Shown piece after piece: positions 1 through 40,746 of a stretch of 64,000 nt of DNA. A program made the translations under genes and the position numbers. Every line of letters starts with the position of its first letter. The first letter of the stretch is position 1. A model generated the notes under the pieces. That model made no database searches, had not been told where the DNA came from, and was given only the letters and a program-made list of their open reading frames with translations. The stretch comes from Acidicapsa acidisoli (lineage in GTDB: Bacteria; Acidobacteriota; Terriglobia; Terriglobales; Acidobacteriaceae): positions 1-64,000 of the forward strand of contig NZ_JAGSYI010000001.1 of NCBI RefSeq assembly GCF_025685625.1, given 5' to 3'.

Positions 1-598
1 TGCCAAGCTTCGCCAACTGGTCGGGCTTCACCCACAGCCTCATGGCGTACTGGCCGGAGCCGAAGATCTGGGTTTGGCCAACGCCGTACAAGCGCGCGAC
101 TGGATCGTTGAGGTTGATGTAGGCGTAGTTCGCCAGATAGGTTGCATCGTGCGTGGCGTGTGGCGAATACAGGGCAATCAGCATCAGCGGAGCCGTGGTC
201 GACTTCTTGAGAGTGACTCCGTAGCTGTTCACCGAGGGCGGGAGCTGACCGGTTGCCAGTTGTTCGCGCGATTGCGTAAGCAGCAGGTCCGTGTTGGGAT
301 CGGTTTTGAGATCGAAATCGACCAGCAACGACGTTTGCTGGTTGGCCGTCGCATTCAGAGAGTACATGTAGGTCATGTCGTCCACGCCGTTCACTTGCTG
401 CTCGATAGGCGTTGCGACCGCATCCTCGAGTGTCTTGGCATCAGCGCCCGGGTAATTGGCTTGCAACCTGATTTCGGGTGGCGCAATGTTCGGAAACTGA
501 GCCACCGGCAGAGTCGCAATAGTAACTGCGCCGACAATCACCATCAGGATCGCGATGACCATCGCTACAATGGGTCGTTCGATAAAGAATTTGGACAT
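1..598 (-). CDS. RND efflux permease, HAE1/AcrB family (5' part, cut by window edge)
   Basis: This is the N-terminal 199 codons of an inner-membrane RND multidrug exporter, which uses the proton gradient to drive export through an adaptor and an outer-membrane channel. The protein opens MSKFFIERPIVA, followed by the first membrane helix and the typical [10 protein letters not shown] and GADAKTLEDAVATPIE segments of the family. The start ATG at 598 has an AAGGAAAAG ribosome site. It is a close paralogue of the permease at 36266-39475. It lies 41 bp downstream of an adaptor gene, the usual operon order. The rest is outside the window. Confidence 0.95.
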   Translation of the reverse strand, partial: MSKFFIERPIVAMVIAILMVIVGAVTIATLPVAQFPNIAPPEIRLQANYPGADAKTLEDAVATPIEQQVNGVDDMTYMYSLNATANQQTSLLVDFDLKTDPNTDLLLTQSREQLATGQLPPSVNSYGVTLKKSTTAPLMLIALYSPHATHDATYLANYAYINLNDPVARLYGVGQTQIFGSGQYAMRLWVKPDQLAKLG

Positions 599-639
599 GG
601 TTCTTTTCCTTTGCGCGTTGACGCCTCAGCAGTCAGCGT

Positions 640-1764
640 TCACTCGACGTTGCCCTTGAACGGTTTCGTTTGCACCGACATTCCAGGCCGGAGGTTCTGC
701 TGACCTTCGACAACCACGCGTTCACCGGGATTCAATCCACTCTGGATGACCCACATCGCGTCAGTGCGCTGTCCGACTTGCACCGGACGCATGCTGACGC
801 GGTTGTCCTTATCCACAACAGCAACGAGATAGCTGCCCTGCTGCTCATTGACAGCAGCCTGGGGAATGAGCGTGGCGTTCTGCTGCTTCTGGATCATGGC
901 TCGAATTTTGCCGTACTGCCCGGGACGCAGAACGTTGCCGGGATTTGGAAACAGGGCAGCGAGCTGAATGGCTCCGGTGTTCTGATTTACCTGGCGATCG
1001 GCGAAATAGAATTCGCCTTCCTGTGGGTACGTGGTTCCATCGGCGAGTATCAGTCGCAGCTTCCAGTGATCTTTGTCTGAGTTTGAGAACCGCCTCTGAA
1101 GCGAGAGGTATTCCTGCTCGCTAACGGTGAAGTAGTCTCGGATGGGATCGAGCGTAGAGACTGTAGTCAATGGGCCACTGCTGGTACTGACCAGGTCGCC
1201 GACCTGCGCCTGTGCGATGCCGGCGATGCCGTCGATTGGCGAAACCACTCGGGTAAAACTGAGATTGATCGCAGCGCTTTCAACCGCGGCCTGGTTGGTC
1301 TTAATTTGAGCCTTCGCAGAAGCGATTGCTGCTTCTGCGGCCCGCACCTGAGCCTTGTTTGCAAGATTCGTCTGCGACGCATTATCGAAATCCTGCGTGC
1401 TTACGGCATCGACTTTGGCCAGCGGTCCGTACTTCTCTACATCCAACTGGCTCTTGAGCTGATTTGCGTCCGAAGTAGCGCGCTGCGCCTCAGCATGAAT
1501 CAGCTGTGCCTGCGCCTGATCTAACTGGCCCTTTGACTGGTCGAGTGCCGCTTGGAATGTGCGAGGGTCGATCTCAAAGAGAACTTGTCCCTTGTGGACG
1601 AACGATCCTTCCTTATAGTTCCGAGCAAGCAGGTACCCCGTAACTTGCGCTTTAACATCGGCATTGACTTGCCCGGCGAGAGTTCCGATCCATTCTCCAT
1701 AAACGGGAACGTCCTTCTGTTCGACGGTGGCGACCTCTACGAGAGGTGATGACGGCGGTTTCAC
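640..1764 (-). pseudogene. RND periplasmic adaptor (HlyD/MFP family), 5' end removed by transposon
   Basis: The encoded protein links an RND permease to the outer-membrane channel. The readable part (374 codons) starts at the VEQKDVPVYGEWIGTL strand and contains the barrel-sandwich lipoyl halves, an alpha-hairpin (about residues 70-150) and the C-terminal beta and membrane-proximal domains. The full-length paralogue at 39481-40698 has about 40 more N-terminal residues, including the membrane anchor or signal. Here these are missing because the transposon terminus begins at 1769, five bases before the first adaptor codon. The GTG at 1764 is only a nominal start. Without its export signal the product is probably inactive, and the downstream permease may be starved of its partner or its promoter. 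Confidence 0.88.
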
Positions 1765-1768
1765 TGAG

Positions 1769-1819
1769 TGTAGTTTTTCACAATAAATGTCGTATTTTTA
1801 TCGCGCTAAATGTCGTATT
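1769..1819 (+). repeat. Left transposon end with two 13-bp transposase-binding-like repeats
   Basis: TGT at 1769, then taaatgtcgtatt at 1784-1796 and again at 1807-1819. The inner copy overlaps the ATG at 1810 that opens the transposase frame, so transposase binding could repress its own gene (inference). Confidence 0.85.
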
Positions 1820-3282
1820 CTCCGCTTGTGAGCGATAACTCCTCCGTGAATCCGAACCCGCTCGACCCAGCGATGGAGAGGTATCGCTTGATCGAGCCTT
1901 ATCTGGAAGGTGCTCAGACTCTCGCTTCAGTAGCCCTGGAAGCTGATATCACCCTCAGAACGGCACAGCGATGGGTGGAGAGGTACCGAAGAGACGGCCT
2001 TGCCTCTCTCAACCGCAAAGAGAGAATCGACCAGGGCAGTAGGCGCGTCATTTCGAATCGAATGCTAGAGACGATTGAGGGCCTCGCACTGGAGAGGCCA
2101 CGAGTACCGATCACTGCGATCTATCGTGAATTGAAGGAGTTTGCCACTAAGACCGGAGAGCCACTTCCCAGCTATCCAGCGGTTTATCGAGTTGTCCGAG
2201 CGATACCCGCCAGTTTGTTGACGTTGGCTCACCAAGGCAGCAGAGTATATAGCGAGAGCTTCGATTTGGTGCACCGACGAGAGGCTTCGAAACCGAACGC
2301 GATCTGGCAGGCCGATCACGCACAACTCAGAATCAAGCTCGTTCGAGAAGATGGAACGACTGCCAGGCCTTGGCTCACCGCGGTGATCGACGACTACAGC
2401 CGTACGATTGCCGGCTATTATCTGGGCTTTGAGCCGCCTTGCGTGCTCCGCACCTCGCTAGCGTTGCGACAAGGCATCTGGCGCAAAGGCGATCCGCGCT
2501 GGCCCGTATGCGGCATCCCAGCCGTTCTTTATACGGACAACGGCTCGGATTTCACATCTCGGCACATGGAACAGGTTGCAGCGGATTTGAAGATCCAGCT
2601 AATCTTCTCAACGCCCGGACACCCGCGCGGCCGCGGTCGGATCGAGCGATTCTTCCGCACGGTAAACGATATGTTTCTGTGTACCCAAGATGGCTACCTT
2701 GGCAAAGTCCTCAGAAAACCGAGCCTAACTCTGGAGCAGCTAGACGCTCGATTCCGCTTGTTTCTGCTGGAGGAGTATCACACTCACTCCACCTCAGACC
2801 TTGGGTTTGTACCCATCACGCGGTGGGAGGGTGACGGTTTTCTGCCACGGATGCCGGATTCTCTTGAACAGCTGGACCTTCTCTTGGTCCACGAGATCAG
2901 GGAACGCAAGGTTCGACCTGACGGCATCCATTTTCATCGCCTGCGCTATCTCTCACCGACGCTGGCAGCTTACGTCGGTGAGTCCATCACGATCCGCTAC
3001 GATCCACGAGATATGGGTGAAGTTCGGATCTTCTACAAGGACCGTTTCTTGTGCCGCGCTATCTCGGCCGACCTAGCCGGCGAGGCGGTACCCTTGCGCG
3101 ATATCGTCCAGGCACGCACCAAACGACGCTACGAATTGCTTACTACTCTCAAGAATCGACAGAAAGCTGTCGACACCTTGCTCAGTCTGAAACGTGGTCT
3201 CAACCCGGAGGAAGTCCATGCAAGCAGCCCCGTTTCAGAAAAGCCCTTTACCCCAAAGCTCAAGCGCTACCACAACGAGTAG
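1810..3282 (+). CDS. TniA-like DDE transposase (Mu/rve catalytic core)
   Basis: This transposase catalyses strand transfer of the surrounding element. An N-terminal helix-turn-helix region (about residues 25-130; ITLRTAQRWVERYRRDGL) precedes an integrase-type catalytic core. The likely triad is D169 (WQADHAQL), D243 (YTDNGSDF) and E279 (RGRIERFF), with exactly 35 residues between the last two as in D,D(35)E enzymes. A C-terminal Mu-type beta-barrel domain follows (about 390-440). The length of 490 aa fits TniA/TnsB-like proteins. The ATG at 1810 lies within a terminal repeat; a GTG at 1828 or ATG at 1873 are alternative starts. It overlaps the tniB-like gene by 65 bp, indicating co-transcription. 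Confidence 0.9.
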   Translation: MSYSPLVSDNSSVNPNPLDPAMERYRLIEPYLEGAQTLASVALEADITLRTAQRWVERYRRDGLASLNRKERIDQGSRRVISNRMLETIEGLALERPRVPITAIYRELKEFATKTGEPLPSYPAVYRVVRAIPASLLTLAHQGSRVYSESFDLVHRREASKPNAIWQADHAQLRIKLVREDGTTARPWLTAVIDDYSRTIAGYYLGFEPPCVLRTSLALRQGIWRKGDPRWPVCGIPAVLYTDNGSDFTSRHMEQVAADLKIQLIFSTPGHPRGRGRIERFFRTVNDMFLCTQDGYLGKVLRKPSLTLEQLDARFRLFLLEEYHTHSTSDLGFVPITRWEGDGFLPRMPDSLEQLDLLLVHEIRERKVRPDGIHFHRLRYLSPTLAAYVGESITIRYDPRDMGEVRIFYKDRFLCRAISADLAGEAVPLRDIVQARTKRRYELLTTLKNRQKAVDTLLSLKRGLNPEEVHASSPVSEKPFTPKLKRYHNE

Positions 3283-4186
3283 TGACGAGAGCTTCGTCGA
3301 AACACTGGAATACAAGCGGTTCGTTGAGTTCTGCGATGCCTGCCGTCAGTACCGATACATCGGCCTTTGCTTTGGGCCGCCGGGGGTCGGCAAGACACTC
3401 TCTGCGATCCGCTACAGCCGGAAGGAGATCATCGACAAGGTCGATCCCTGGACCGCAGAATTATCCATCGAGCCTCTACTTGACACAGTTCTTTACACGC
3501 CTTCAGTCATTAACTCGCCCTCGAGGATCGATCATGACATCCGACGTCAACGCGAGATGCTCGCCGGCTTTGCTAGACGTCCTCTCCGTCGGGAGGCTCA
3601 GGCCGCCCTTTCAGTTCTACGAGCACGGGACGAATCTCATCGGAAAGCTAATCTCGACAAACCATTACAGAAGCGGATTGAAATTTCTTTGCTGAAGCCG
3701 ACATATCTGGAAGTTTTCGCCGACTTCGCAGCACGCGAGAAGGCAATGGCCGATCCGACAACCCTTTTGCTGATCGACGAGGCAGACCGTCTTCGGATGA
3801 CGAGCCTAGAGCAGATTCGCGCCATCTTCGATGAGGGCAGCGCGGGCTTGGTGCTCATCGGCATGCCGGGTATCGAGAAACGGATGGCGCGCTTTCCTCA
3901 GTTCTACTCAAGAATTGGCTTCGTGCATGAGTTCCGACCGCTGGGCACGCCGGAGATGCAGGTTTTACTCGATCGCCACTGGACACCTAGCGGCGTTCAC
4001 CTGCCTCAAAGCCCTTTACTGCCCGAAGTCACCGCCGCGATCATTCGGATGACAGGCGGAAATTTCCGGCTGCTAAATCGGTTGCTAGCGCAGATCGAAC
4101 GCGTTCTCGTCGTCAACGGTCTCCAGGAGATCACCGCCGACGTCGTCCTCGCAGCGCGAGAAAGTCTCGTTATCGGTCAAGCCTGA
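3218..4186 (+). CDS. TniB-like AAA+ transposition ATPase
   Basis: This is the ATP-dependent partner that would activate the DDE transposase and help choose the target. Walker A is GPPGVGKTLSAIR early in the protein and Walker B is LLLIDEADRL; the sensor region GMPGIEKRMARFPQFYSRIG follows. The start at 3218 is preferred because GGAGG stands nine bases upstream. The gene overlaps the transposase 3' end and runs convergently into the recombinase, with only two bases between the stop codons (4186 and 4189). A near-identical C-terminal half recurs at 5189-5575. Confidence 0.9.
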   Translation: MQAAPFQKSPLPQSSSATTTSSDESFVETLEYKRFVEFCDACRQYRYIGLCFGPPGVGKTLSAIRYSRKEIIDKVDPWTAELSIEPLLDTVLYTPSVINSPSRIDHDIRRQREMLAGFARRPLRREAQAALSVLRARDESHRKANLDKPLQKRIEISLLKPTYLEVFADFAAREKAMADPTTLLLIDEADRLRMTSLEQIRAIFDEGSAGLVLIGMPGIEKRMARFPQFYSRIGFVHEFRPLGTPEMQVLLDRHWTPSGVHLPQSPLLPEVTAAIIRMTGGNFRLLNRLLAQIERVLVVNGLQEITADVVLAARESLVIGQA

Positions 4187-4188
4187 AT

Positions 4189-5121
4189 TCACAAGCCAAT
4201 ATTGTCATTGACCGCGATTGCGATCTCTTGCTCAGAGCCAAGGTAGCGCTCTGTCGTCTGAATCGAAGAATGACCAAGCAGAAACTTAATCTGCTCAAGA
4301 TCGCCACCCGATTTACGGCAGAGTTTCGCGCATGTGCGCCGAAGATCGTGAGCCCCGAATCGTTCGATGCCGATTTGCTCCGCTGACTGTTGCACAACCG
4401 ACCAGACTGCCCAATCGCTCAGGCTACTGCGGGCGACATTGCCGCCCTTCGTCACCGACCGGAAGAGCTTCCCTTCCAGTAGCTCGGCTGAATCGAGCCA
4501 AGCATTGATCGCGTTCTTGACCCAGAGGGGCACGGCGACGGTGCGGATTCGGTTGCCTTTTCCGCAAAGATCCGCAATCACCCAACGCCCTTCACGTTCT
4601 TGAAGATCCGACATCTTAAGTGTAGCTAGCTCACGCCGGCGAAGAGCACACCCAACCAGTAATGCCAGGATTGCGTAGTCGCGCTTCCCTTTCAGGGTTG
4701 AGCGATCCGGGACCTGCAACAGCTCCTTCGCTTGCTCTCGTGTAAGCCAGTTTCCCAGCCGGTTGCCACGCTGTCTCACATTCGGAATGTCTGACAAGTT
4801 CGCCGCATCCTCTGCTGAGATCAAGCCGTTGCGGCGGGCCTCTCCGACGAGTCGTCGGACAGCTGAAAGCTTGACATTGACAGTCGAGGGTGCCAGCGCA
4901 TCCATCGAGGCTTTCCACTCCTGTAGCAACGCACGACTCAACGGCCGACCAGCAGAGAAAGCGAAGAGTTCATTCAGCGCCAGGGAGTAGCTCCGTCGTG
5001 TATTCGATGACGTGACAGAGTCCAGGACCATCTGCTTCAGCAGAACCTGCGCCTCAGTCAGTTCACCGTGTCCCGCAGCACTCTGTGCGGACTCTGGCGC
5101 AGCTAGAAGAAGATTATCCAT
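4189..5121 (-). CDS. Tyrosine recombinase (XerC/D-like) of the transposon
   Basis: This site-specific recombinase has a SAM-like N-terminal core-binding domain (about 20-110) and a catalytic domain. Visible catalytic residues are R in GCALRRREL, H-x-x-R in GAHDLRRTCAK, the second H in LLGHSSIQTT and the nucleophile Y in ERYLGSEQE. Its position inside the transposon, convergent with tniB, suggests a resolvase for cointegrates or a second mobility enzyme; this is inference. The paralogue at 9996-10928 shares the motif order and the C-terminal NDN(L/I)GL ending. Related Tn5053 elements carry a serine resolvase in this role. Confidence 0.9.
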   Translation of the reverse strand: MDNLLLAAPESAQSAAGHGELTEAQVLLKQMVLDSVTSSNTRRSYSLALNELFAFSAGRPLSRALLQEWKASMDALAPSTVNVKLSAVRRLVGEARRNGLISAEDAANLSDIPNVRQRGNRLGNWLTREQAKELLQVPDRSTLKGKRDYAILALLVGCALRRRELATLKMSDLQEREGRWVIADLCGKGNRIRTVAVPLWVKNAINAWLDSAELLEGKLFRSVTKGGNVARSSLSDWAVWSVVQQSAEQIGIERFGAHDLRRTCAKLCRKSGGDLEQIKFLLGHSSIQTTERYLGSEQEIAIAVNDNIGL

Positions 5122-5137
5122 CTCACCTCACGCTAGA

Positions 5138-5188
5138 TATACGACATTTAGCGTGAAAAGAATACGACGAAGATTTCAAAAAAGAACA
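5138..5188 (-). repeat. Right transposon end, inverted repeats
   Basis: Read on the minus strand this starts TGT at 5188, with tcgtattc from 5167 and cgctaaatgtcgtat ending near 5138. It aligns without gaps to the left end over the segment from tcgtat through cgctaaatgtcgtat. The recombinase start codon (5121) lies 17 bp inside the inner repeat, so its promoter probably overlaps the end. Confidence 0.85.
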
Positions 5189-5575
5189 AGCAGCCTCGAG
5201 CAGCTGCGCTCCGTTTTCGATAAGAGCGGACTTGGCATGGTGCTGATCGGAATGCCGGGAATCGAAAAGCGCGTCGCTCGTTACCCTCAATTGTTCTCAA
5301 GAATTGGATTCGTTCACGAGTTCCGCCCACTCAGTGATGCCAACATCCAGGTTCTGCTGGAGGAACGATGGGCGCCTGTAGGAATTCACCTCCCTCTCTT
5401 GCCCCCTGATCCGGAGGTAATCGCAGCCGTCATTCGGCTCACTCGCGGCAACTTTCGCCTGCTTGTTCGCTTGCTGACACAGATGGAACGGGTCCTTGTA
5501 ATCAACAAGCTTCAAACCCTATCGGTGGATGTTGTCCAAACAGCCCGCGAGAATCTGGTCATCGGGCAGGCCTGA
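5189..5575 (+). pseudogene. tniB C-terminal fragment (second, related transposon)
   Basis: The reading frame begins exactly at the base after the transposon terminus (SSLEQLRSVFDKSGLG) and continues to a normal stop, ending ENLVIGQA. It parallels the intact TniB over its last 128 residues (GMPGIEKRVARYPQLFSRIGF shared in order) but is clearly diverged. The N-terminal half with the Walker motifs is absent. It shows that the newer element, or a deletion it caused, removed the first half of an older relative. Confidence 0.9.
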
Positions 5576-5601
5576 CAAGCAGCTCCAGACCTGACTGGTG
5601 T

Positions 5602-5636
5602 GCCAAATAATTAGGACAGAAGTTAGCCAAATAATT
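5602..5636 (+). repeat. Paired 11-bp direct repeat
   Basis: gccaaataatt occurs at 5602-5612 and 5626-5636 (24-bp period), just after a TGT at 5600. The second copy overlaps the last codons of the Tn3 transposase remnant. The layout resembles a transposon end of the TGT-plus-repeats kind, but no partner end was found. Confidence 0.5.
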
Positions 5637-6205
5637 TGAAAAACAACAGGGCGCCGAGGCCGTTTCTTGGCAATCGGAGGGGTCGGAACCCACCTTTGGC
5701 CACCCTTTTATTTGAGTGCCATGTGTAATCGCCCGTGAGGTTGACGTGCTCCCAGCCGAGAGGAGATACGTGCTGAAGCAAGGACGGGTCCAACTGGTGG
5801 GACTTTGCCAGAAGGCTGGCAGCCCTTTCGAGATAGACCGTGGTTCAGAGCGTGATTGCCGCGACAATCAGGTTCAACCCGCTGGCTCTATGGCGCTGGT
5901 TCTCGAAGGAGCGATCGCGGATTTCGCCGAGTCTGTTGAAACAGACGGCCCGAGCCATGGCGTTGTGTGCTTCGCCCTTGTTGAGGCCAGCGGTCACACG
6001 GCGTCTTAGTGTGGGGTCTCTGAGCCACTCCAACATAAACAGGGTACGCTCGATTCTGCCAACTTCGCGAAGAGCAATGGCCAGACTGTTTTGACGGGGA
6101 TAGGAGCCGAGCTTGCGAAGGATCAGGGAGGCAGTCACCATTCCCTGCTGGATCGACACGATTACGACTATTAGTTTGGCGAACCGTTCGCAGCGAATCC
6201 GTCGT
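5623..6205 (-). pseudogene. Tn3-family transposase, C-terminal remnant with nonsense codon
   Basis: The fragment matches the conserved Tn3 TnpA tail: [53 protein letters not shown], then GDYTWHSNKRVAKGGFRPLR and a normal FKLFG end. The frame is intact except for one TGA at 5845-5847 where the family has Trp (before TTVYLERA). The N-terminal four fifths are missing; upstream it runs, in the same frame, into the stop of the next gene at 6214. It is a dead relic, and no 38-bp Tn3 inverted repeat is evident. Confidence 0.9.
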
Positions 6206-8760: not shown

Positions 8761-9849
8761 CTAATTTTCACTTCGGCTAGGTAAAGGCTGTTGATCTTGG
8801 TCTTCTAGATCGTTCAAGTTCGAGAGCCGGGCGCGATCCCGTTCAAGTTCTTTTCTCAATTCTTCTTCCGAAGGCAGTACGAGTTTGTATCTGCTGGCAA
8901 ACAACTGTTCGTTCTCGTGAAGAACGGAGTAGCGCACAACAGAAGCATCCTTTTGAGTACAGAGAATGATGCCGACCGTCGGATTGTCGTCAGAGGTTCT
9001 CTTGAGATCGTCCATCATGCGGACGTACATATCCATCTGTCCGATGTCTTGGTGGTTCAACTCACCAGACTTGAGATCAAACAGCACGAAGCACTTAAGC
9101 AGATAGTTGTAAAAAACCAGGTCGATGTAGAAATCTTTGGATTCGGAGCTGATCCGATACTGTCTCGCGACAAACGCGAATCCCCTACCCAGTTCGAGTA
9201 GAAAGGCCTGTAGATTGTCGAGCAGGGCCCTCTCAAGGTCCGCCTCAAGCAATTTGCCAACCCCCGGTAGTCCTAAGAACTCAAGAATTACGGGATCGCG
9301 AACGAAATCACGCGGGGTTTGAGTCGGTACTAAGTTGGCCTTGGCTTCGTCCTGGACAGCGGCGCGGTCGGACGTTGACAGGAGCCGTTCGTAGTAAAGC
9401 GAGCTGATTTGCCGCTCAAGCGAGCGCGTCGTCCAGCCCTGGCCTGCGGCTTCCGTCATGTACCAGTGCCGCGCGGAGTCGCTTTCTACTCGCAGAAGCG
9501 TTCGGTAGTGGGTCCAGCTCAATTCATGACGCAATGCGTCACGAATTGGAAAGGCGTTGTAAAACAGCCGCATATACCGGAGGTTCGAGACGTCAAACCC
9601 CTTCCCGAACTCCGAGGTCAGGGACGAAGCCAAGGTCTGCAGGAGCCGGGCTCCATATTCCGCCCGTGCCGAGCCCCCTTGTTCGAACTCGACGATATGC
9701 CGGCCTATCTCCCACGAGGTCTGCACCTGAACGGCATCGACCGCTCGTAATGCCCTTTGCCGGGCATTTTGGATCAGATCACGAAGACTGCGAAGGAGCT
9801 GGGATGCACCTTCGTCTGCTTCGGCCGCTTTGCGCAAATCCTTCGCCAT
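8761..9849 (-). CDS. DUF1016 (YhcG-type) PD-(D/E)XK nuclease-like protein
   Basis: Two domains are visible: an alpha-helical DUF1016 N-terminal domain (SWEIGRHIVEFEQGG, ELSWTHYRTLLRV, residues about 15-160) and a C-terminal PD-(D/E)XK-fold domain whose active-site strand pair reads FYIDLVFYNYLLKCFVLFDL followed by KSGE. The Asp and the D-x-K are present. Family members are DNA-cleavage candidates often found next to restriction or mobile genes; the substrate is unknown. A second member lies at 24078-25136. Here it is flanked by transposon remnants and is likely cargo. Confidence 0.9.
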   Translation of the reverse strand: MAKDLRKAAEADEGASQLLRSLRDLIQNARQRALRAVDAVQVQTSWEIGRHIVEFEQGGSARAEYGARLLQTLASSLTSEFGKGFDVSNLRYMRLFYNAFPIRDALRHELSWTHYRTLLRVESDSARHWYMTEAAGQGWTTRSLERQISSLYYERLLSTSDRAAVQDEAKANLVPTQTPRDFVRDPVILEFLGLPGVGKLLEADLERALLDNLQAFLLELGRGFAFVARQYRISSESKDFYIDLVFYNYLLKCFVLFDLKSGELNHQDIGQMDMYVRMMDDLKRTSDDNPTVGIILCTQKDASVVRYSVLHENEQLFASRYKLVLPSEEELRKELERDRARLSNLNDLEDQDQQPLPSRSEN

Positions 9850-9925
9850 CTCACCATCCCGTCTTATCGTACCCGCTCGTCAAGTTGAGGTGTGGCCGAC
9901 CTCTCATGAGGAATCGACGTACCAA

Positions 9926-9955
9926 CTACAGTCCTAGGTTGTCGTTTACTATGTC
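9926..9955 (-). pseudogene. C-terminal stub of a third tyrosine recombinase
   Basis: Nine codons plus stop read DIVNDNLGL, matching the ends of the two recombinases in this window (both VNDN(L/I)GL). Upstream of this the frame no longer resembles the family. It marks a deletion or insertion joint beside the second recombinase gene. Confidence 0.6.
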
Positions 9956-9995
9956 GCTCAACCCTGTAAGCGATTCGCTTATAGGATTGAATCGC

Positions 9996-10928
9996 TCAAA
10001 GACCTAGATTATCGTTCACCGCGATTTCGATCTCCTGCTCAGATCCGAGGTAGCGTTCGGTGGTCTGGATGGAGGAGTGGCCGAGCAGGAACTTGATCTG
10101 TTCGATATTTCCGCCGTTCTTGCGGCAGAGCTTGGCACAGGTGCGGCGCAGGTCGTGTGCCCCGAAGCGCTCGATCCCGATCTCTTTGGCTGACTGCTCG
10201 ACCACCGACCAGACGGCCCATCCGCTCATGCTCTCCTTGACCTTGCCGTGTTTCGACACGGCGCGAAGCAGCCTGCCGTCTTCGACGCCCGCGGCGGTCA
10301 TCCAGGTGTTGATTCCCTGCTTGACCCAGGCCGGAATCGCTACGGTGTGCACCCGGCGCCCTTTTCCTTCGAGGTCGGCGAGCACCCAGCGCCCTTCCCG
10401 CAACTGAATGGTATCAACATCGAGCGCCGCGAGCTCCTCCCGGCGCAGGGCGCAGCCAACCAGCATGGCCAGGAGGACGTAATCCCGCTTCCCCTTGAGC
10501 GTCGACCGATCGGGAACCGCCAGCAGTTCCCTCGCCTGCTCCCGTGTCAGCCAGTTGCCCAGGCGGGTTCCCTTCTGCGGGATGTTCGGAACCTCCGAGA
10601 GCCTCGCCGCATCCTCAATCCCGATGAGTCCGTTTTTTCTGGCTTCCGCGACGAGCTTCCGGATTGCCGAGAGGCGGACGTTGACCGTAGACGGCGCCAG
10701 GGCCTCCATCGACGCCCGGTACTCCATCAATAAGGCGCGGGTGAGCGGCCGGCCGGCTGAGAGCGTAAAGAGGTCATCGAGGGCCTTGGCGTAGTTTCGG
10801 CGGGAATTTGGGCTTGGTACGGAGTCCAGCACCATCCGGCGAAGCCTCTGCTGGGCCTCTACGAGGCCGTTTTCCGGCGCTTGAGTACCTCCAGCGTCCG
10901 CAGGCCCGGAAATGACCGAAATCTCCAC
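9996..10928 (-). CDS. Tyrosine recombinase, paralogue of the transposon recombinase
   Basis: The architecture is the same as the recombinase at 4189-5121, with conserved blocks LGNWLTREQA, STLKGKRDY, GCALRREEL (catalytic Arg), FGAHDLRRTCAKLC (His and Arg), LLGHSSIQTTERYLGSEQE (His, Tyr) and VNDNLGL. The GTG at 10928 gives a protein of matching length; the frame is open 22 codons further up. No transposase gene accompanies it directly. The tniB fragment at 5189-5575 has the same relative orientation as tniB in the intact element, which supports an older element whose convergent junction was filled with 4.4 kb of other DNA. Confidence 0.9.
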   Translation of the reverse strand: MEISVISGPADAGGTQAPENGLVEAQQRLRRMVLDSVPSPNSRRNYAKALDDLFTLSAGRPLTRALLMEYRASMEALAPSTVNVRLSAIRKLVAEARKNGLIGIEDAARLSEVPNIPQKGTRLGNWLTREQARELLAVPDRSTLKGKRDYVLLAMLVGCALRREELAALDVDTIQLREGRWVLADLEGKGRRVHTVAIPAWVKQGINTWMTAAGVEDGRLLRAVSKHGKVKESMSGWAVWSVVEQSAKEIGIERFGAHDLRRTCAKLCRKNGGNIEQIKFLLGHSSIQTTERYLGSEQEIEIAVNDNLGL

Positions 10929-10945
10929 GCGGCGATTATACCTAT

Positions 10946-10961
10946 GACAACCGACATTGTC
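10946..10961. repeat. Short inverted repeat upstream of recombinase
   Basis: gacaa (10946-10950) and ttgtc (10957-10961) flank a 6-bp centre, 18 bp upstream of the recombinase start. The size resembles a tyrosine-recombinase core site with a 6-bp overlap, but the arms are short. Confidence 0.3.
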
Positions 10962-11104
10962 GTGGGCAATCCAAACCCCTAAAGAAAGCATCAACTCAAA
11001 TCAAATCTCGGCCCGAACATGGATCCAGGGTGCGGGGAAATCCTTTCCTCTCGCTGAGAAAATAAGTCTTCAGAACTGACAAATGATTCACGTCCCCCGT
11101 TACT

Positions 11105-13834
11105 TCAAATCCCTAGTCCAATCTCAAATCCCATGCTGATCTCCTGGGCCGGGATTTCAAGCTCACTCTTTGGGGTTAGATCCTGAGTCATGGAATGTTC
11201 AACTGAAGCTGATGGCATCGGTTCCCTGGCAAGCTCGATTGCAGAAGTCCGTGCTGAGGAAATACCCAGGGATTCTTGCAGCTGTTCCCTATCGCTGGTC
11301 ATGATGGCAATTTCAGAGCGCCCGCGCGAAGCGGCGACATAGAAAAGTTCCTGCTGCATTGCGTCCGCAGATACGATAACCCCGTCCACAGTTTTACCTT
11401 GGCTCCGATGCGCAGTGATAGCGTAACCATGATCGAAAGAGTGATAGTTCGTCGGAATGGCACGGCCATCCTCTAGCTGAATGCGTCCGCCTTCGACACC
11501 ATGGACTTTGACCAGTTCTCCATTGGTGGCTCGGAACTCGGCATCCCGGCGATTGCCGGTCAGCAGCAGCAGGTCGCCGGGAGCAACTTTGATTGGCCTT
11601 TGTTCGTGAACGGAAAACGCCCGCGTTTGGACTGGAGTGAAGGTCTTCTCTTCCCCCTGAGCGTTCCGGGCAACGAGGAAGCCGGCTTCAGCACGGTCAA
11701 CGATCAGCGCCTCATGCTTCTCCATGCCACGTCCAGTACGATGCATCAGCAGCACCTGCCCTTCGCGAAAATTCGAGAGATCACGCTTCTGTGCTTCGGT
11801 CCATTGCAGAGGCACGTAACGATCGATCGTTATACTGGCGCCGAGCTGGCCGCGCTCGATGAGGTCCTCGCGAATCGCACGTGTCACCCTGCCTATCTCT
11901 TCATGCGTTGGAGCCACGACCAGAATTCGTCGAGAGGAATCGAGGGTCATTTCCCGGTAGAGGTCGGCAACCTGATGAGCCCGGTCGAGGAATGGAACTT
12001 CACGCACGGCACCCATGCGCTCCAGCTTCGCAAATCCCTCTTCCGGCGATTGGCGCAGCGTTTGAATGGCGTCTTTGTATTGCGCGTGCGTCTGACGCTG
12101 TACGCCCGTAAGAGAAAAACTCTTCATCTGCGACTCGCGTTCGAGAATCCTGAGTGCGTCGGAAGCCTCGACACTCTGAATCTGCCGGGTATCGCCGGAG
12201 AAGAGGACACGCGCCTGCTGTTGATCCGCAAGACGAAGAAGTCCCTCCATTTGCCTGCCTGAGATCATGCCCGCCTCATCGACAATCAAAACACGCTGAC
12301 GAAGAGCCGATTGCGCGGTCTCATCTTCGAGCAGGCGGGAAACTGTCATGGCATCACGGAACCCAACTTTCTGCAGTTCCTCGACTGCGCTGCGAGTCGG
12401 GGCAACAGCGGTGATCCCGTGCCCCGCCTCCCGCAATCCCCGATCGATCTCCTGTAGGGTGGCCGTCTTGCCCGTTCCCGCCGCGCCCCGAAGATTGATG
12501 GCGAAGTCATGCGAGTCCAGGATCTGCTGTACAGCTCGCTTCTGTTCGTCGCGTAATTGATCCTGGGGCTGAAAGTGATGTGGTCCCCCCAATCGCCCGT
12601 ATGGTCCGATTCCTTGGTTGACCGTCGCAATCATGCGCTGCTCGCGCTCAAGGCTCTCGCGAGTAGCCACGCGGTCTCCGCGATAAATGATGTCGCCTCT
12701 AGACTTGTCTATCTCGAGAGTGCCGCGAAGTTGGCTCGGATCGATTTGGCCTCGGCCGTGCCGTAGAGACTCGGTCAGCAACTCGTAATCATGGACAACG
12801 GAACGGCGCTCAAAGAGATGATCCTTGGCATATTGCAGGGAGTTGGGCGCCGAAGAGAATTGTTGCGTCACTTCTCTACTCTGCTCCAGAGAATTCGAGC
12901 GGAGTTGCTTCAGGCTCTTTAACTCTTCTGGGGAGATGCGCGCCTGCTGCTGTTGTCGCAGCTCCTCGGTCGTTATTTCCGTAAGTTTGTTCGTGCGTGA
13001 TTCCCGGACAAGTACGGCGATCTCGTTGTCCGTAGGTCTACGGCCGTGCTCTCGTGTGAAGTCGTCAATTGCGGCATCGCGTTGCACACTTCGTTGGCTA
13101 TAACGCTCCAGCAATCCGTTAGGAACTCCCCGAATCTCGAAGCCAAGATCCCGGCCACGTGGATCGCGACGAGACTCGATCTCATAGCCAAGTCCGCGCA
13201 CCTCTCGGGCCAACGCATTTCGGTAGACTTCCGTCAAGTAGGCACGGCGCTCGTATAGGCCAGACGCCTGTAAGGCCTTCCACCGGCCCTCTGCGCCATC
13301 GTAGGTGAGGTTGGCCGCCACAGCATGGGTGTGCAGTTGAGGATCAAGCTCGCGGCTTGTGTCGTGCCGGTATGTGGCCACGATCCAATTCGAGGTTGTG
13401 CGGTTGTCATTGCTATGCGCCAGGCGTACCCGCGTAGCTGCGTATCGCTCCCCCTCTCCGAGAGCGGCTTGGACAGACTTATCATGAGCAGCAATCAGCC
13501 GCTCGTCGCCCCCAACGACGGCCTGGATCGAAATCGACTTCGGTGCGGAGAAGGTTAGGTCATAGAGTGACCGCGCCTTGGTCTGCGTATTTCCTTGGTC
13601 ATCCAGCCGATCGGAGCTGTGGCGCGGACGCAGGTAGTCGCCCGTTAGCGGATGCATTCCCTCACGTATGGCTTCGAACTGTGCGGACTTGACTTCACCA
13701 TGCAAGCCGACTAAACGCGCGCCTTGCCCATGCCAAGCTCCAGCTACTCTGTGATTTTCGTCATAGTAGTCGCTATGCTGCAGATGCCTTTCCGCATATC
13801 CCGCGCCGCCTGTCATCGCCCGAATCGTCAACAT
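11105..13834 (-). CDS. MobF-family conjugative relaxase-helicase (TrwC-like)
   Basis: This protein nicks one strand at oriT, stays covalently bound and unwinds DNA during conjugative transfer. The relaxase domain (1-300) has the paired catalytic tyrosines Y23/Y24 (SDYYDEN) and the three-histidine metal site H156, H168 and H170 (DPQLHTHAVAAN). The helicase half is RecD2/TraI-like, with Walker A GAAGTGKT (450-457) and Walker B LIVDEAGM (516-523); a C-terminal UvrD-like motif HRSQGKTVDG also occurs. At 909 aa it is close to TrwC. No coupling protein or type IV secretion genes lie nearby, so mobilisation would need a helper. Confidence 0.93.
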   Translation of the reverse strand: MLTIRAMTGGAGYAERHLQHSDYYDENHRVAGAWHGQGARLVGLHGEVKSAQFEAIREGMHPLTGDYLRPRHSSDRLDDQGNTQTKARSLYDLTFSAPKSISIQAVVGGDERLIAAHDKSVQAALGEGERYAATRVRLAHSNDNRTTSNWIVATYRHDTSRELDPQLHTHAVAANLTYDGAEGRWKALQASGLYERRAYLTEVYRNALAREVRGLGYEIESRRDPRGRDLGFEIRGVPNGLLERYSQRSVQRDAAIDDFTREHGRRPTDNEIAVLVRESRTNKLTEITTEELRQQQQARISPEELKSLKQLRSNSLEQSREVTQQFSSAPNSLQYAKDHLFERRSVVHDYELLTESLRHGRGQIDPSQLRGTLEIDKSRGDIIYRGDRVATRESLEREQRMIATVNQGIGPYGRLGGPHHFQPQDQLRDEQKRAVQQILDSHDFAINLRGAAGTGKTATLQEIDRGLREAGHGITAVAPTRSAVEELQKVGFRDAMTVSRLLEDETAQSALRQRVLIVDEAGMISGRQMEGLLRLADQQQARVLFSGDTRQIQSVEASDALRILERESQMKSFSLTGVQRQTHAQYKDAIQTLRQSPEEGFAKLERMGAVREVPFLDRAHQVADLYREMTLDSSRRILVVAPTHEEIGRVTRAIREDLIERGQLGASITIDRYVPLQWTEAQKRDLSNFREGQVLLMHRTGRGMEKHEALIVDRAEAGFLVARNAQGEEKTFTPVQTRAFSVHEQRPIKVAPGDLLLLTGNRRDAEFRATNGELVKVHGVEGGRIQLEDGRAIPTNYHSFDHGYAITAHRSQGKTVDGVIVSADAMQQELFYVAASRGRSEIAIMTSDREQLQESLGISSARTSAIELAREPMPSASVEHSMTQDLTPKSELEIPAQEISMGFEIGLGI

Positions 13835-25418: not shown

Positions 25419-28010
25419 TTGCTGTTGGCCGTCCTGTTGGGTGTCGTTGGGTGCCAAGTCCTCCGCTGGAGGAATCCTGCCTCTCCAGAGGCGCTCCTTG
25501 AGCGAGCCGACGAGATGTCGTGGCTAAATAGCTGGATAGGGGCGGAACCTCTCTACAAACAAGCTGAGGTTCAATTCATACAAAAACATCAGCTCTCGAA
25601 GGCACTCTACGCGCGTGTCAGCGAAATGCCGGCACACAGCGAATCGTCAACGAGTGTCCCAGCCCAAATTGCGCAGCTGATACATGACCTGGCGCTCCCA
25701 GAGGCTCAGGAACCTGAGACTCGACTTCGTATTCTGACAATCCTCGGGATGCTCGAAGTGAATTACGACTCGGGAATGGCGCAGAAGACCTGGACTGAGG
25801 TGGAGACTTTGGCACTCCGCCAACACCACTACTTGCTCGCATCCAGAGCATCCGGCGAACAGGGAATAGCAGCATTCTTACTTGGCGATATTGCAACCGC
25901 AAAAAAGAAAGTCGTTAGAGCCTGGATGATCGCAAAGGCCGCCGATCCTGGCGCCCATATCCGATACGCCAGCATGTACGGCACTGGCCTAGTCGAGCTG
26001 CACAAATACAAGGAGGCGCTTGGGCCGCTTGATGAGGCAATCAAGGTCGCCGCGAAGACCCGCGGCGCAGCGTATCCGACGATTGCTACCGCGGCCAAAA
26101 TCGAAGCTCTTAGCGGTCTCGGAGAGAACAAAGAAGCGCTGGCATTGGCTGAAGAGGACTTGCGTCGAGTGAGCGATTATCATCTTGCCGGTCACCTCTA
26201 CGAGCTTTACCAGGCCAGGGCCGGCGTCTACGAGAGGATGGGCCATTGGGAACAAGCAGTCTCCGACTATGAGCAGGCCGTTCACTATGCAAAACAGCTT
26301 TCATACTGGCGCGGCTTGACGCAGGTGGACGGTCTGTTGGCGCTGGCATACCTGCATGAAGCGGCTTTGCAGCCTGCGTTGACGGCGATAAACGATGCCA
26401 TCGCAGCCAACGAACAAATTCCTGATGAGCTGTATTTCGTCCCCAGGGATCTCGCAATCAAAGCGCAGATAATGGCTCGCCTCGGCGACAACAAATCAGC
26501 AAACACTTTCTATGAAAAGAGCGAAGATATGCTGGACGCTCTGCTCAGCAGAGTGCCGACGCCGACCGTGGAACGCCTGCTCCTTGCCGATCTGAGCAAA
26601 GTTTACTCCGGGTACTTTGAATTCTTATCCGACGAAGGAAAGACATCGGACGCGTTCCGTGTGATCGAGCGAGCCCGCGGACGCGTTGAGGCACAATCCT
26701 TATCGCATCATGAGATCGTCACGCCACACGACTCTAATCCTGCCGAGCAGCAATTATCGAGATTGAACCTGGACTTGCTCAATACCGACGATTCGGCGGC
26801 CAGAGAGCGCATTCTTGATTCCATCTATGAGACAGAGCTACAGCTCGATTCAGATTCGGTAGCACGAAACAAACCTCCAGAGCCGATAAACCTTGGCCAG
26901 CTCCAGCGTGAACTCCTTCCATCGGAGCTTTTCGTTGAATACGTCTTGGACAACCCTCATTCCTACGCGCTCGCGCTCACGAATACGACTGTCCACCGAT
27001 ACACATTGCCGTCGAAGGACGCATTGGAGCAAGGAGCATCAGCCTACCGCACTGAGATTCTGCAACAGAAGACGGATTTGTCTCTGGCGCAGCAACTGTT
27101 CAACGAGCTCCTGGGAAGTATCCCTGAATTCAATGAAAAGAAGGCTTTGATCGTTGTGCCGGATGGAAATCTTCACCTCCTTCCTTTCTCTGCGCTGGCA
27201 GAGAAGGGCCGATACATTTTGAGCTCGCATCTGGTATCCGTGGTCCCGTCTGGAACTGTGCTTCACATTCTGGAGAATCGCATGCAGAATCAAAAAGAAA
27301 ATCTACCCTATGTTGGAGTGGCTGCCTGGACTACCAATTCGCCTCCACACACATTGCTTTCGTCCGTTCGCCGCGCTATCTCCGGGCCTGAGAGGCGAGA
27401 GCTTGTTGCGCTACCGGAGAGCCGTCATGAAGTCGAGACGATTGCCGCAGATTTACCCAAACCAAGCGCCATTCTCCTGGGGGACAAGGCGACTAAGACC
27501 AACTTCGAGCAACTTCCGCTGGGCCAGACCAGCGTCATCCACCTGGCTCTTCATGGATATGTCGATCCAGAAATCCCAGATCGCTCCGCCCTCGTATTCG
27601 CTCCTCAACAGCAAGTAACAGATGATGGCCTGCTCCAGATTCGAGACATCAGGAATCTTCATCTCAATGCGAGTCTCGTCACGCTCTCTGCCTGCAACAC
27701 GGGTGTGGGACCAGTTGGCGAAGAAGGTGTGGCAAACATCGTCAATGCGTTCATCGAGGCAGGATCTCAGAGCGTGGTATCAACCCTTTGGGAACTCGAA
27801 GACCACGCTACCGCTCACTTCATGACGGTCTTCTATGACCACCTCGGTCGCCACGAAGAAAAGGCAGAGGCTCTTCGGCAAGCGCAACTCGAAATGCTGA
27901 ATTCAGGAGATCCGCCGTTCTACTGGGCAGGCTTTGTGCTCGACGGCGACTCCCGCGGCAACCTCTTCCAATCGCCAGAAAGCAATCTCCCTTTCAGGAG
28001 TTCGAGATGA
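25419..28010 (+). CDS. TPR-CHAT protease lipoprotein
   Basis: This 863-aa protein starts with a hydrophobic stretch and lipobox-like LLGVVGC, suggesting export and lipidation. Residues about 25-420 are tetratricopeptide-like helical repeats (WEQAVSDYEQAVHYAKQL, YKEALGPLDEAIKVA). The C-terminal third is a CHAT domain, a caspase-like cysteine protease fold, with the catalytic His in VIHLALHGY (about 712) and Cys in TLSACNTG (about 759). The start is a TTG; the frame is open upstream, so a few more residues are possible. Its stop overlaps the ATG of the S41 protease gene by four bases, so the two proteases are made together. Substrate unknown. Confidence 0.87.
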   Translation: MLLAVLLGVVGCQVLRWRNPASPEALLERADEMSWLNSWIGAEPLYKQAEVQFIQKHQLSKALYARVSEMPAHSESSTSVPAQIAQLIHDLALPEAQEPETRLRILTILGMLEVNYDSGMAQKTWTEVETLALRQHHYLLASRASGEQGIAAFLLGDIATAKKKVVRAWMIAKAADPGAHIRYASMYGTGLVELHKYKEALGPLDEAIKVAAKTRGAAYPTIATAAKIEALSGLGENKEALALAEEDLRRVSDYHLAGHLYELYQARAGVYERMGHWEQAVSDYEQAVHYAKQLSYWRGLTQVDGLLALAYLHEAALQPALTAINDAIAANEQIPDELYFVPRDLAIKAQIMARLGDNKSANTFYEKSEDMLDALLSRVPTPTVERLLLADLSKVYSGYFEFLSDEGKTSDAFRVIERARGRVEAQSLSHHEIVTPHDSNPAEQQLSRLNLDLLNTDDSAARERILDSIYETELQLDSDSVARNKPPEPINLGQLQRELLPSELFVEYVLDNPHSYALALTNTTVHRYTLPSKDALEQGASAYRTEILQQKTDLSLAQQLFNELLGSIPEFNEKKALIVVPDGNLHLLPFSALAEKGRYILSSHLVSVVPSGTVLHILENRMQNQKENLPYVGVAAWTTNSPPHTLLSSVRRAISGPERRELVALPESRHEVETIAADLPKPSAILLGDKATKTNFEQLPLGQTSVIHLALHGYVDPEIPDRSALVFAPQQQVTDDGLLQIRDIRNLHLNASLVTLSACNTGVGPVGEEGVANIVNAFIEAGSQSVVSTLWELEDHATAHFMTVFYDHLGRHEEKAEALRQAQLEMLNSGDPPFYWAGFVLDGDSRGNLFQSPESNLPFRSSR

Positions 28011-29296
28011 CCACGGATCATTCCAATCAGGCGACACCCCCACAGCTTTCCGCTCGCGATCGCCACGCTATTCTCGAAAAGGTGTTGGCTATTCTGGAGA
28101 AGCGATTTTATCGGCCGGAAAAGCTGGATGACGATTGGCGGGCCGCTGTGAACCGCCACCGGCCATTGATTGAAGCCGCCGACACGGCGGACGCCTTTGA
28201 ACAATGCATGAGCGACCTGCTGGCCGAGTTGCATGTCTCGCATCTGGGCTTCTTTCACGGCAGCGCCCGCAGAGCTTCCAGCCGCGCTGCGTTAAGCGCA
28301 ACGTACCTCGCCGACGAAACACCCTTCGGAAAGCGATGGATATTTCAAGATGTTCACTCGGGCGGCGCGGCATCCAACGCGGGAATCGAGCCTGGAGACA
28401 TTCTTCTCAGCGTGGATGGCCGGGAGATCGCACCGCCCGAGCATCCGGTCTTCGCTATGGGAAAGCAAACTGGACTGGAGATTATCGGTAAAGACGATCA
28501 AATTCGCCTTGTTGCGGTCGATGTGGCGCGGCCCAAGGGGAAGAAGCTCCATTTTGTTGAGCCGACGCTGGTGGAGGTGCGCCATCTGGAAAACGGACTG
28601 GGCTATTTGAAGGTTGCGATGTTCCCTGGAATGGTCGGAGTCGAGGTGGCGAACGAAATCACGCGTGCCATCGAGAAGTTGGGGAAAATGGACAGTCTCA
28701 TCATCGACCTCCGTGGGAACACTGGAGGAGGGATCGGCGCACTTCGTATCATGAGCCTGCTCACGCCCGACAGAGTTCCAGTAGGGTTTGCACTCGACAG
28801 AAATCGTGTTACGCCAAATCTGGATTCAGAGAAGCAACAATTTCGACGATTCCATGCAATCCCCGCTTCCAAGAAGGCGCTCTGGCCGCTTGCCTTGAAG
28901 TTTGCGCCAGCAATGCTAACCAATAAACCAGTCGTACTTGAAACAGAGGGGCTGGGCCGAAGAGATTTCCACGGAAACGTAATTCTCCTTGTGGATCGCC
29001 ACACAGCGAGCGCCGCAGAAATGATCGTCGCGTTTGCGCGAGAGAACAACCTCGCCAGGATCGTCGGCGAGAACACCGCTGGCAGACTTCTTTCTGCCAC
29101 CTCGGTAAAGGTTGGCCAAGGATTCCGCCTGGCGTTACCCACCGGGGCTTATTACACGTGGAGAGGTTCAGTTCTTGAAGGGACGCCTATCGAACCGGAC
29201 GAACTGGTCGAATTTGATTGGCGAGGATCACGGGGAAACAAGGACAGGCAACTTGAGTATGCCATCGAATCTGTGAGCGCCGGACAAAGTCGTTGA
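28007..29296 (+). CDS. S41-family (C-terminal-processing) protease with PDZ domain
   Basis: The 429-aa protease has an N-terminal helical segment (VLAILEKRFYRPEKLDDDW), a PDZ domain (about 100-170, VHSGGAASNAGIEPGDILLS) and a tail-specific protease core (YLKVAMFPG, LIIDLRGNTGGG). The likely nucleophile is Ser in VDRHTASAAEMIV; a basic partner is not obvious from reading alone. No clear signal peptide is visible, unlike its lipoprotein neighbour. It is translationally coupled (ATGA) to the CHAT gene, suggesting joint proteolysis or one activating the other. Confidence 0.87.
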   Translation: MTTDHSNQATPPQLSARDRHAILEKVLAILEKRFYRPEKLDDDWRAAVNRHRPLIEAADTADAFEQCMSDLLAELHVSHLGFFHGSARRASSRAALSATYLADETPFGKRWIFQDVHSGGAASNAGIEPGDILLSVDGREIAPPEHPVFAMGKQTGLEIIGKDDQIRLVAVDVARPKGKKLHFVEPTLVEVRHLENGLGYLKVAMFPGMVGVEVANEITRAIEKLGKMDSLIIDLRGNTGGGIGALRIMSLLTPDRVPVGFALDRNRVTPNLDSEKQQFRRFHAIPASKKALWPLALKFAPAMLTNKPVVLETEGLGRRDFHGNVILLVDRHTASAAEMIVAFARENNLARIVGENTAGRLLSATSVKVGQGFRLALPTGAYYTWRGSVLEGTPIEPDELVEFDWRGSRGNKDRQLEYAIESVSAGQSR

Positions 29297-39480: not shown

Positions 39481-40698
39481 CTACCTCTCCTTCGCCTCGG
39501 CGGCCTGATCGACGAACGGCTTGGGATTCACCTGCATACCGGCGCGCACATGTTGTATGCCCTCGGCTACGACACGGTCGCCGGGTTTCAGTCCTTTTTG
39601 AATGATCCACAGGGAGCCAAAGCGTTCACCGACCTCCACCGGCTGAATGCTCACTTTGTTCTCGCTGTCGAGGAGGGCTACCTGATAGCTGCCTTGAAGT
39701 TCTGTAACCGCACGTTGGGGAATTAGGAGGGCATCCTTTTGGATTCGCGTCGCCGCACGCACTTTGCCGTATCCGCCTGGACGCAGAATATTCCCCGGAT
39801 TGGGAAACAGCCCTGCGATCCGGATCGCGCCAGTGCTCTGATTCACTTCGCGGTCCGCGAAGTAGATTTCCCCCGCCCTTGGATAGGTTGTACCGTCAGC
39901 CAAGATTAGCGTGAGCGGCATCTGCCTCCTCTGCGCCATCCGGCTGGCTACGCTCGGGTATTGCCTGTTGAACTCAAGGTATTCCGGCTCGCTCACAGTA
40001 AAAAAAACCTTGATCGGTTCAACCGTCGAGACCGTAGTGACCGGTGGGCTGCTCGCGTCAACCAGGGCGCCGACCTGAAGCTGGGCTTGTCCGGCAATTC
40101 CACTTATGGGGGCGAGAAGCCGAGTAAACCCGAGATTGACCTTCGCCGTTTCGACCGCAGCCGCTGCTGTTTTGATTTGAGCCTTGGCAGTCTGCACGGT
40201 CGCTATCGCCGCAAGGTTGTTCTGAGTGGCATTGTCGAGATCCTGCTGGCTCGCTGCCTGCTCCTTCGCCAGCGGAGTGTACCGCTCCACATCGAGCCGG
40301 GTGCGGACTTGAACAGCTTCGGCGTTAGCAAGCTGCGCGGTGGCCTGTGCTAGCTGTCCTTCGGCTTGGTCGAGAGCCGCCTGAAAGGGTCGCGGATCGA
40401 TCTCGAACAGGAGTTGACCCTTCTGGACCAACGCGCCTTCTTGGTAGGCTTGCCGGCGCAAGTAACCTGTGACTTGCGCCTTGACGGCGGCATTCTCGAA
40501 TCCGTCCAACGTACCGATCCATTCGCTATAGGGGGTCACATCCTTCTGTTCGACCGGCGCCACCATCACATCCGGAGGCGCTCCCGTCGCGACACTGGAT
40601 ACGTGTTTCGAGGGGATCGCCACAACGATCAGGGCGATGACGACAATCAAACAAAGCGTTCCTCCTGTGACGAGCCAACGTTTTGAAAGAGTACTCAT
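39481..40698 (-). CDS. RND periplasmic adaptor (HlyD/MFP family)
   Basis: The protein links the permease and the outer channel. An N-terminal membrane anchor ([20 protein letters not shown]) is followed by the lipoyl/barrel-sandwich ([20 protein letters not shown]), an alpha-hairpin rich in Ala and Gln (about 100-180), the beta-barrel and the membrane-proximal domain ([17 protein letters not shown]). ATGs at 40704 and 40698 are both possible starts. It is the first gene of the operon and is paralogous to the truncated adaptor at 640-1764. Confidence 0.95.
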
Positions 40699-40746
40699 CT
40701 TCACCTACCATGATGGGTCCGCGGTGTGCGTTCCGACCCTAGAGAA

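Follow-up and report, generated by a model that had tools for sequence, protein, structure and literature searches.

The transposase boxes of Tn552 are paired and spaced by about 23 bp, and transposons of the Tn402/Tn5053 family carry a serine resolvase, TniR/TniC. In the available excerpts of its description, Tn552 contains two transposition genes, p271 and p480, together with the serine resolvase gene bin and a bla cargo, has 6-bp target repeats and inverted repeats of ~120 bp, and inserts at res sites (PMC3276174); it is called replicative, with arrays of inverted repeats at its ends (PMC3276174, PMC8649781). The excerpted literature also presents Tn5053 as a res-site hunter (PMC3960245), and a Tn552 derivative with tnpABC that is discussed with a tyrosine-recombinase model and is apparently not of the tniA-tniB-tyrR type considered here (PMC12486829). 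Tyrosine or serine resolvases are core parts of TnsA-less Tn7-like elements (PMC8649781), of which 73-97%, depending on the clade, have TnsD/TniQ according to excerpts of the same source. Here, we analyzed a stretch of 64,000 nt of Acidicapsa acidisoli (contig NZ_JAGSYI010000001.1 of GCF_025685625.1, positions 1-64,000; hereafter the window), which contains an apparently complete 3420-bp element, named W (1769-5188, + strand), made of tniA, tniB and a tyrosine recombinase gene, tyrR. The reading that we favor, with somewhat better than even confidence, is that W is a replicative, cointegrate-forming Tn552-like transposon whose TyrR is a captured plasmid-type XerC-like cointegrate resolvase.

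W is apparently intact and well delimited, and its three genes fill the interval between the ends, leaving no space for a further gene. tniA (1810-3282, + strand) encodes a DDE transposase (Pfam rve, 9.7e-14; Mu-transpos_C, 6e-19); among proteins of solved structure, the best match is to TnsB from a V-K CRISPR-associated transposon (CAST; 5.7e-45). The residues D169, D243 and E279, the last two spaced by 35 residues, are counted from an ATG at 1810 that falls within the left end of the element. Since tniA of locus L033 of Granulicella mallensis aligns with its ATG at position 5959, the true start may be the GTG at 1828 in the same frame, in which case residue numbers would be six lower. tniB (3218-4186, + strand) encodes an AAA+ ATPase (Pfam AAA_22, 4.8e-15) with the Walker motifs GPPGVGKT and LLLIDEADR and weak matches to TnsC and MuB. 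Convergent to this pair and only 2 bases from tniB, tyrR (4189-5121, - strand) encodes a 310-aa XerC-like tyrosine recombinase (Pfam Phage_integrase, 2e-25) with R-K-HxxR-H-Y-like motifs, nearest to XerC/XerD and below the equivalog cut-offs of both models. We take the motifs of the three proteins to have their usual catalytic and ATPase meaning. The DDE residues with their spacing, the AAA+ ATPase and the convergent tyrosine recombinase had all been pointed out by an earlier note on this DNA, which also described the element as lacking TniQ. Consistent with this, a search of the A. acidisoli genome for TniQ gave no match at a threshold of E 0.1; the power of this search was modest (the control gave matches in 3 of 14 genomes, none above the cut-off). 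TniQ was present in 4 of 12 genomes of relatives, on contigs differing in length from those that carry the TniA loci, or at a distance of 1.8 Mb. An IS481 identity was rejected, as the score with the NCBIfam IS481 transposase model was 122 bits, below the cut-off of 224, and the AAA+ gene is separate.

The left end (1769-1819, + strand) consists of TGT and two 23-bp boxes (1774-1796 and 1797-1819), and the right end (5128-5188, - strand) of TGT and two boxes, of which the outer is weak; the terminal letters are TGTAG and TGTTC, respectively. The termini are identical at 38 of 50 positions, against a maximum of 28 of 50 among 2000 control pairs (400-bp stretches drawn from the rest of the window), showing that the TGT/ACA termini are real. 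Two 13-bp repeats per end had been claimed, at a spacing of 23 bp. The spacing stands, as the core ATACGAC recurs at 23 bp at both ends (1789/1812 on the left, 5139/5162 on the right), and three of the four repeats are good (both left copies exact, the inner right one with 1 mismatch); for the outer right 13-mer, no copy was found within 3 mismatches.

Both ends coincide with homology breaks. On the left, window positions 1-1768 are 84% identical to an hlyD paralogue (L190), and homology stops at the base preceding TGT; similarity to a second aligned paralogue (L189) stops earlier, at 1726. On the right, the terminus is common to W and two broken copies, L227 and L228, and the sequences beyond differ in all three. 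L227 matches W 4182-5188 at 88%, and the similarity of L228 reaches W 5175, aligned to the same TGT. The gene interrupted by the left end is of the hlyD type (640-1768, - strand) and has intact-frame paralogues in the same genome; several hlyD-type paralogues, on three contigs, are 62-88% identical to the cut copy (window 640-1764 and 39481-40704 were flagged). The right end adjoins what remains of a second TniB element (5189-5648, + strand), comprising the 3' part of a 5'-cut tniB up to 5575, 68% identical to W 3803-4186, and a right end at 5648 that forms the second-best end pair.

W is thus flanked by a cut hlyD gene and by the cut tniB of another element. No target duplication was found at W, as only 2 bases match between the flanks, and the insertion site looks rearranged. 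We propose that either an exchange between copies or a later deletion next to the element, arising from intramolecular replicative transposition, would explain the unlike cut genes on both flanks, and with them the missing duplication. Of 10 outer relatives that were mapped, 5 have target duplications of 5-8 bp, in line with a Tn552-like mechanism. The insertion targets were hlyD for W, a TyrR-like gene for L208, and genes for a DUF772 transposase, an IS110-type transposase and an outer-membrane protein for others, and L033 adjoins a short TyrR-like fragment (E 5.5e-7). Because the other flanks are unrelated genes, these sequences do not establish the preference for recombinase targets reported for Tn552. 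At L033 9324-9617, the TyrR-like fragment lies with what looks by eye like a miniature inverted-repeat transposable element (MITE)-like end pair of another TniA-type element, ~230 bp apart. A further integrase, read by eye in the left flank of L033, was supported neither by Pfam nor by tblastn (best E 0.07). Also considered in weighing such a preference was locus L168, where the left end of a two-gene element is ~30 bp away from a dif-like palindrome (1-30), a perfect inverted repeat of 10 bp with a 6-bp spacer.

Like Tn552 as described in the excerpts, W has a transposase and AAA+ pair without TniQ. It also shares with Tn552 the TGT/ACA ends with boxes spaced by about 23 bp, and its TniA is 46-47% identical to those of staphylococcal plasmid relatives with the Tn552 layout. 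In contrast, its sole third gene encodes a tyrosine recombinase instead of the serine resolvase Bin, and neither the duplication nor the cargo of that description is found in W. Because it has neither serine resolvase nor duplication, we did not file W as a Tn552 member; it probably works like Tn552. W resembles the TnsA-less Tn7-like elements (Tn5053 clade, clade 2 of Benler et al. 2021) in having a DDE transposase and an AAA+ protein without TnsA, and in carrying a tyrosine enzyme, whose predicted role there is cointegrate resolution (PMC8649781); it differs by lacking TnsD/TniQ, a component of most of those elements as far as the excerpts go. With neither an adjacent tniQ nor a serine resolvase, W also differs from Tn402/Tn5053, and it shares TnsB/TnsC likeness with V-K CAST elements but consists of three genes only, without TniQ and Cas12k.

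To place W among its relatives, the genomes of 84,980 species were scanned, yielding 167 pattern stretches and 107 relatives, of which the best 80 were kept, representing 79 loci; 12 pattern stretches in viral contigs included no relative. Genes within 4.5 kb of TniA were classed by similarity to reference proteins, some loci being cut by contig ends. On this basis, a serine recombinase lies near TniA at 55 loci, a tyrosine recombinase at 6, both at 3 and neither at 15. L033 alone among the 79 has a close TyrR relative (79%) in the arrangement of W, the remaining tyrosine-recombinase matches near TniA being 24-32% identical. The L033 element (3425 bp) is a collinear relative, with the same three genes in the same orientation and matching ends, and is 74%, 70% and 79% identical to W for TniA, TniB and TyrR and 69% at the DNA level over nearly its full length. 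Two broken copies, overlooked by the TniA searches, were found by searching the genomes of L033 and L034. L227 retains TyrR (90%) and the right end, its left part missing, and L228 contains a 2.07-kb collinear block (86%) with TniB (91%), TyrR (92%, with two stops) and a cut TniA. The collinear copies at L033 and L228 indicate that the genes travel together, and since TniA searches missed L227 and L228, broken copies are under-counted.

The subtype was found in three genomes, those of A. acidisoli, G. mallensis and Edaphobacter modestus, with broken copies in the latter two. Across the class, TyrR relatives (E up to 1e-60) occur in 79 of 399 genomes and TniA relatives (1e-100) in 9 of 399; across the family, TniA relatives (E up to 1e-40) occur in 13 of 398, the genome of A. 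acidisoli being included in each count. The match of the family search in genome G565 occupies the same contig position as L033, and G565 was taken as the L033 genome. The nearest TniA clade consists of Acidobacteriaceae two-gene TniA-TniB elements (L034-L036 of E. modestus, L167 and L208) that share TGT/ACA ends, like boxes and the lack of duplication with W; they differ in their size of 2.45-2.49 kb and in having no TyrR. Two of them, L034 and L035, are direct copies on one 313-kb contig, and their facing flanks (left of L034, right of L035) share the 7-mer GCCTATA, as in an unresolved cointegrate. The flank match is ambiguous, as one extra base is unexplained, and since this contig has just one ParA-type match, the view that it represents two fused replicons is unsupported.

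Elsewhere, a tyrosine recombinase directly adjoins TniA-TniB in a Scytonema plasmid element (L023, 3854-7236), as in W, and in Fimbriimonas (L038, 522-3949). These are different recombinases, located directly upstream of TniA-TniB with all three genes in the same direction, and possibly separate acquisitions; ends were sought for L023 and for the first L038 copy and not found. In Nitrospira L044, a tyrosine recombinase reads through the probable right end.

Phylogenetic analysis placed W and L033 as sisters for both proteins. In the TyrR tree (39 rows), the pair (100/98) lies inside a well-supported group of solo relatives of the same family, and the transposon TyrRs form one supported clade. 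In the TniA tree (57 of 77 rows kept, rows below 45% identity having been excluded beforehand), the pair (100/99) lies inside a 100/99 clade otherwise composed of two-gene elements, whose sister clade (97/88) includes serine-bearing elements; row L182 of this tree is the window itself, labelled "other", and TyrR-group label counts there are unreliable. The simplest history suggested by these trees is that the serine resolvase was lost and TyrR was then captured once. Furthermore, TyrR and TniB are under purifying selection, with dN/dS values of 0.13 for TyrR between W and L227 (dN 0.053, dS 0.40) and 0.10 for TniB between W and L228; between W and L033, synonymous change in TyrR and TniA is near saturation or beyond.

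A candidate core site for TyrR, with 11-bp arms and a 7-bp spacer, lies at 5128-5156, 6 bp before the TyrR start, and overlaps the inner TniA box. This palindrome was equalled by 1 of 500 shuffles, 22 regions being tested. Taken singly, the upstream inverted repeats of 4 of the 22 regions had p values under ~0.02 (W 0.002, L153 0.006, L155 0.014, next 0.036), and most were no different from shuffles. The candidate core is kept in L228 and shows one change in L227. A dif-like site, C(C/T)ACGANAA-N6-TT(G/C)TC, occurs directly upstream of 9 of 23 TyrR genes, W TyrR not being among them, by a pattern drawn up after inspecting the sequences and then counted.

In the scheme that we infer, where the replicative mode, the role of TyrR as resolvase and its site are deduced rather than observed, TniA, aided by TniB, would join nicked TGT/ACA ends to the target. 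Because no TnsA-like gene is among the three, the expected product would be a cointegrate in which the element is present as two direct copies; TyrR would resolve this cointegrate by recombining a core site, perhaps the palindrome, that each copy contains. TyrR would have been captured once, at the right end, from a plasmid-type XerC-like family. In favor of this scheme, the serine recombinases of close relatives (L037, L041, L042, L047 and L056) occupy the right part of the element, where TyrR lies in W. Several observations weigh against it. All 7 elements mapped in the Acidobacteriaceae clade (W, L033, L034, L035, L036, L167 and L208), both TyrR-bearing ones included, lack a target duplication, and a clean resolved insertion was not seen in this clade. 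Moreover, the two-gene relatives get by with no resolvase at all, L033 does not retain the candidate core, and the resolvase activity of TyrR is itself a prediction.

The divergence of the core in L033 would suit an alternative that we regard as possible but clearly less likely, namely that TyrR is a passenger plasmid dimer resolvase, useful to the plasmids that the element enters and without a role in transposition, cointegrates being resolved by RecA or never. Close TyrR relatives are indeed mostly solo, as none of 21 opened neighborhoods contained TniA/TniB (E up to 1e-3); several are on plasmids, and L028 and L032 are next to or near ParA genes. However, TyrR is wedged between tniB and the right end at the same place in W and L033, the elements carry no other cargo, and serine resolvases hold a similar place in relatives. 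The window contains a second, solo TyrR gene (9996-10994, ~70% to TyrR of W) within a plasmid-like region (8761-13834) that also includes a YhcG-type nuclease gene and a TrwC-type relaxase. On plasmid pACIX903 of Granulicella tundricola, a TyrR fragment lies next to a PDDEXK nuclease gene.

A rather unlikely elaboration is that the right end bound by the transposase incorporates the TyrR core. TniA and TyrR would then compete, and joining and resolving would be coupled via the overlapping site; an exchange of the right end with plasmid cores by TyrR might also occur. Still more doubtful is a second movement route, raised by the earlier note, in which the right-end core would be recombined with plasmid cores, giving site-specific entry or replicon fusion. 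The dif-like site upstream of solo TyrR genes is compatible with it, as is a 1005-bp unit of such a site and TyrR that is present twice with different flanks (L150 6715-7719 and L151 6683-7687; 100% identical, ~37 kb apart on one contig), suggesting that solo TyrR perhaps moves as a cassette. Nonetheless, this route received no direct support: the letters of the W candidate core differ from the dif-like site, the ends and boxes are of the DDE-element type, and the analysis turned up no insertion into such a core. Finally, a chance neighborhood of TniA-TniB and TyrR among nested relics, as the second tniB relic and the second TyrR gene of the region might suggest, was rejected, since collinear copies exist: the same unit with matching ends at L033 and parts of it at L227 and L228.

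Neither the TniQ-less organization nor the tyrosine enzyme, considered by the earlier note as possible signs of a little-described family, is new by itself, as Tn552 is already described, in the excerpts, with two transposition genes and no TniQ (PMC3276174), and tyrosine resolvases are published in TnsA-less Tn7-like elements (PMC8649781). W therefore represents a resolvase change within a known kind of transposon. What is new is a Tn552-like lineage that lacks TniQ, branches within two-gene elements devoid of a resolvase, and has captured a XerC-like recombinase, whose family appears otherwise solo and on plasmids in Acidobacteriota. No report of the TniA-TniB-TyrR subtype was found in titles and abstracts of the open-access literature, which is weak evidence of absence. 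Our observations suggest a readable history of resolvase swaps, from serine-resolvase elements to two-gene elements without resolvase and then to capture of a plasmid-type tyrosine recombinase. Such swaps, known from Tn7-like elements, would thereby extend to Tn552-like transposons that lack TniQ. W also offers a 3.4-kb soil-bacterium system for testing how copy-and-paste transposition and resolution are connected.

Elsewhere in the window (25419-29296), a PDZ/S41 peptidase gene comes directly after a CHAT-domain gene.

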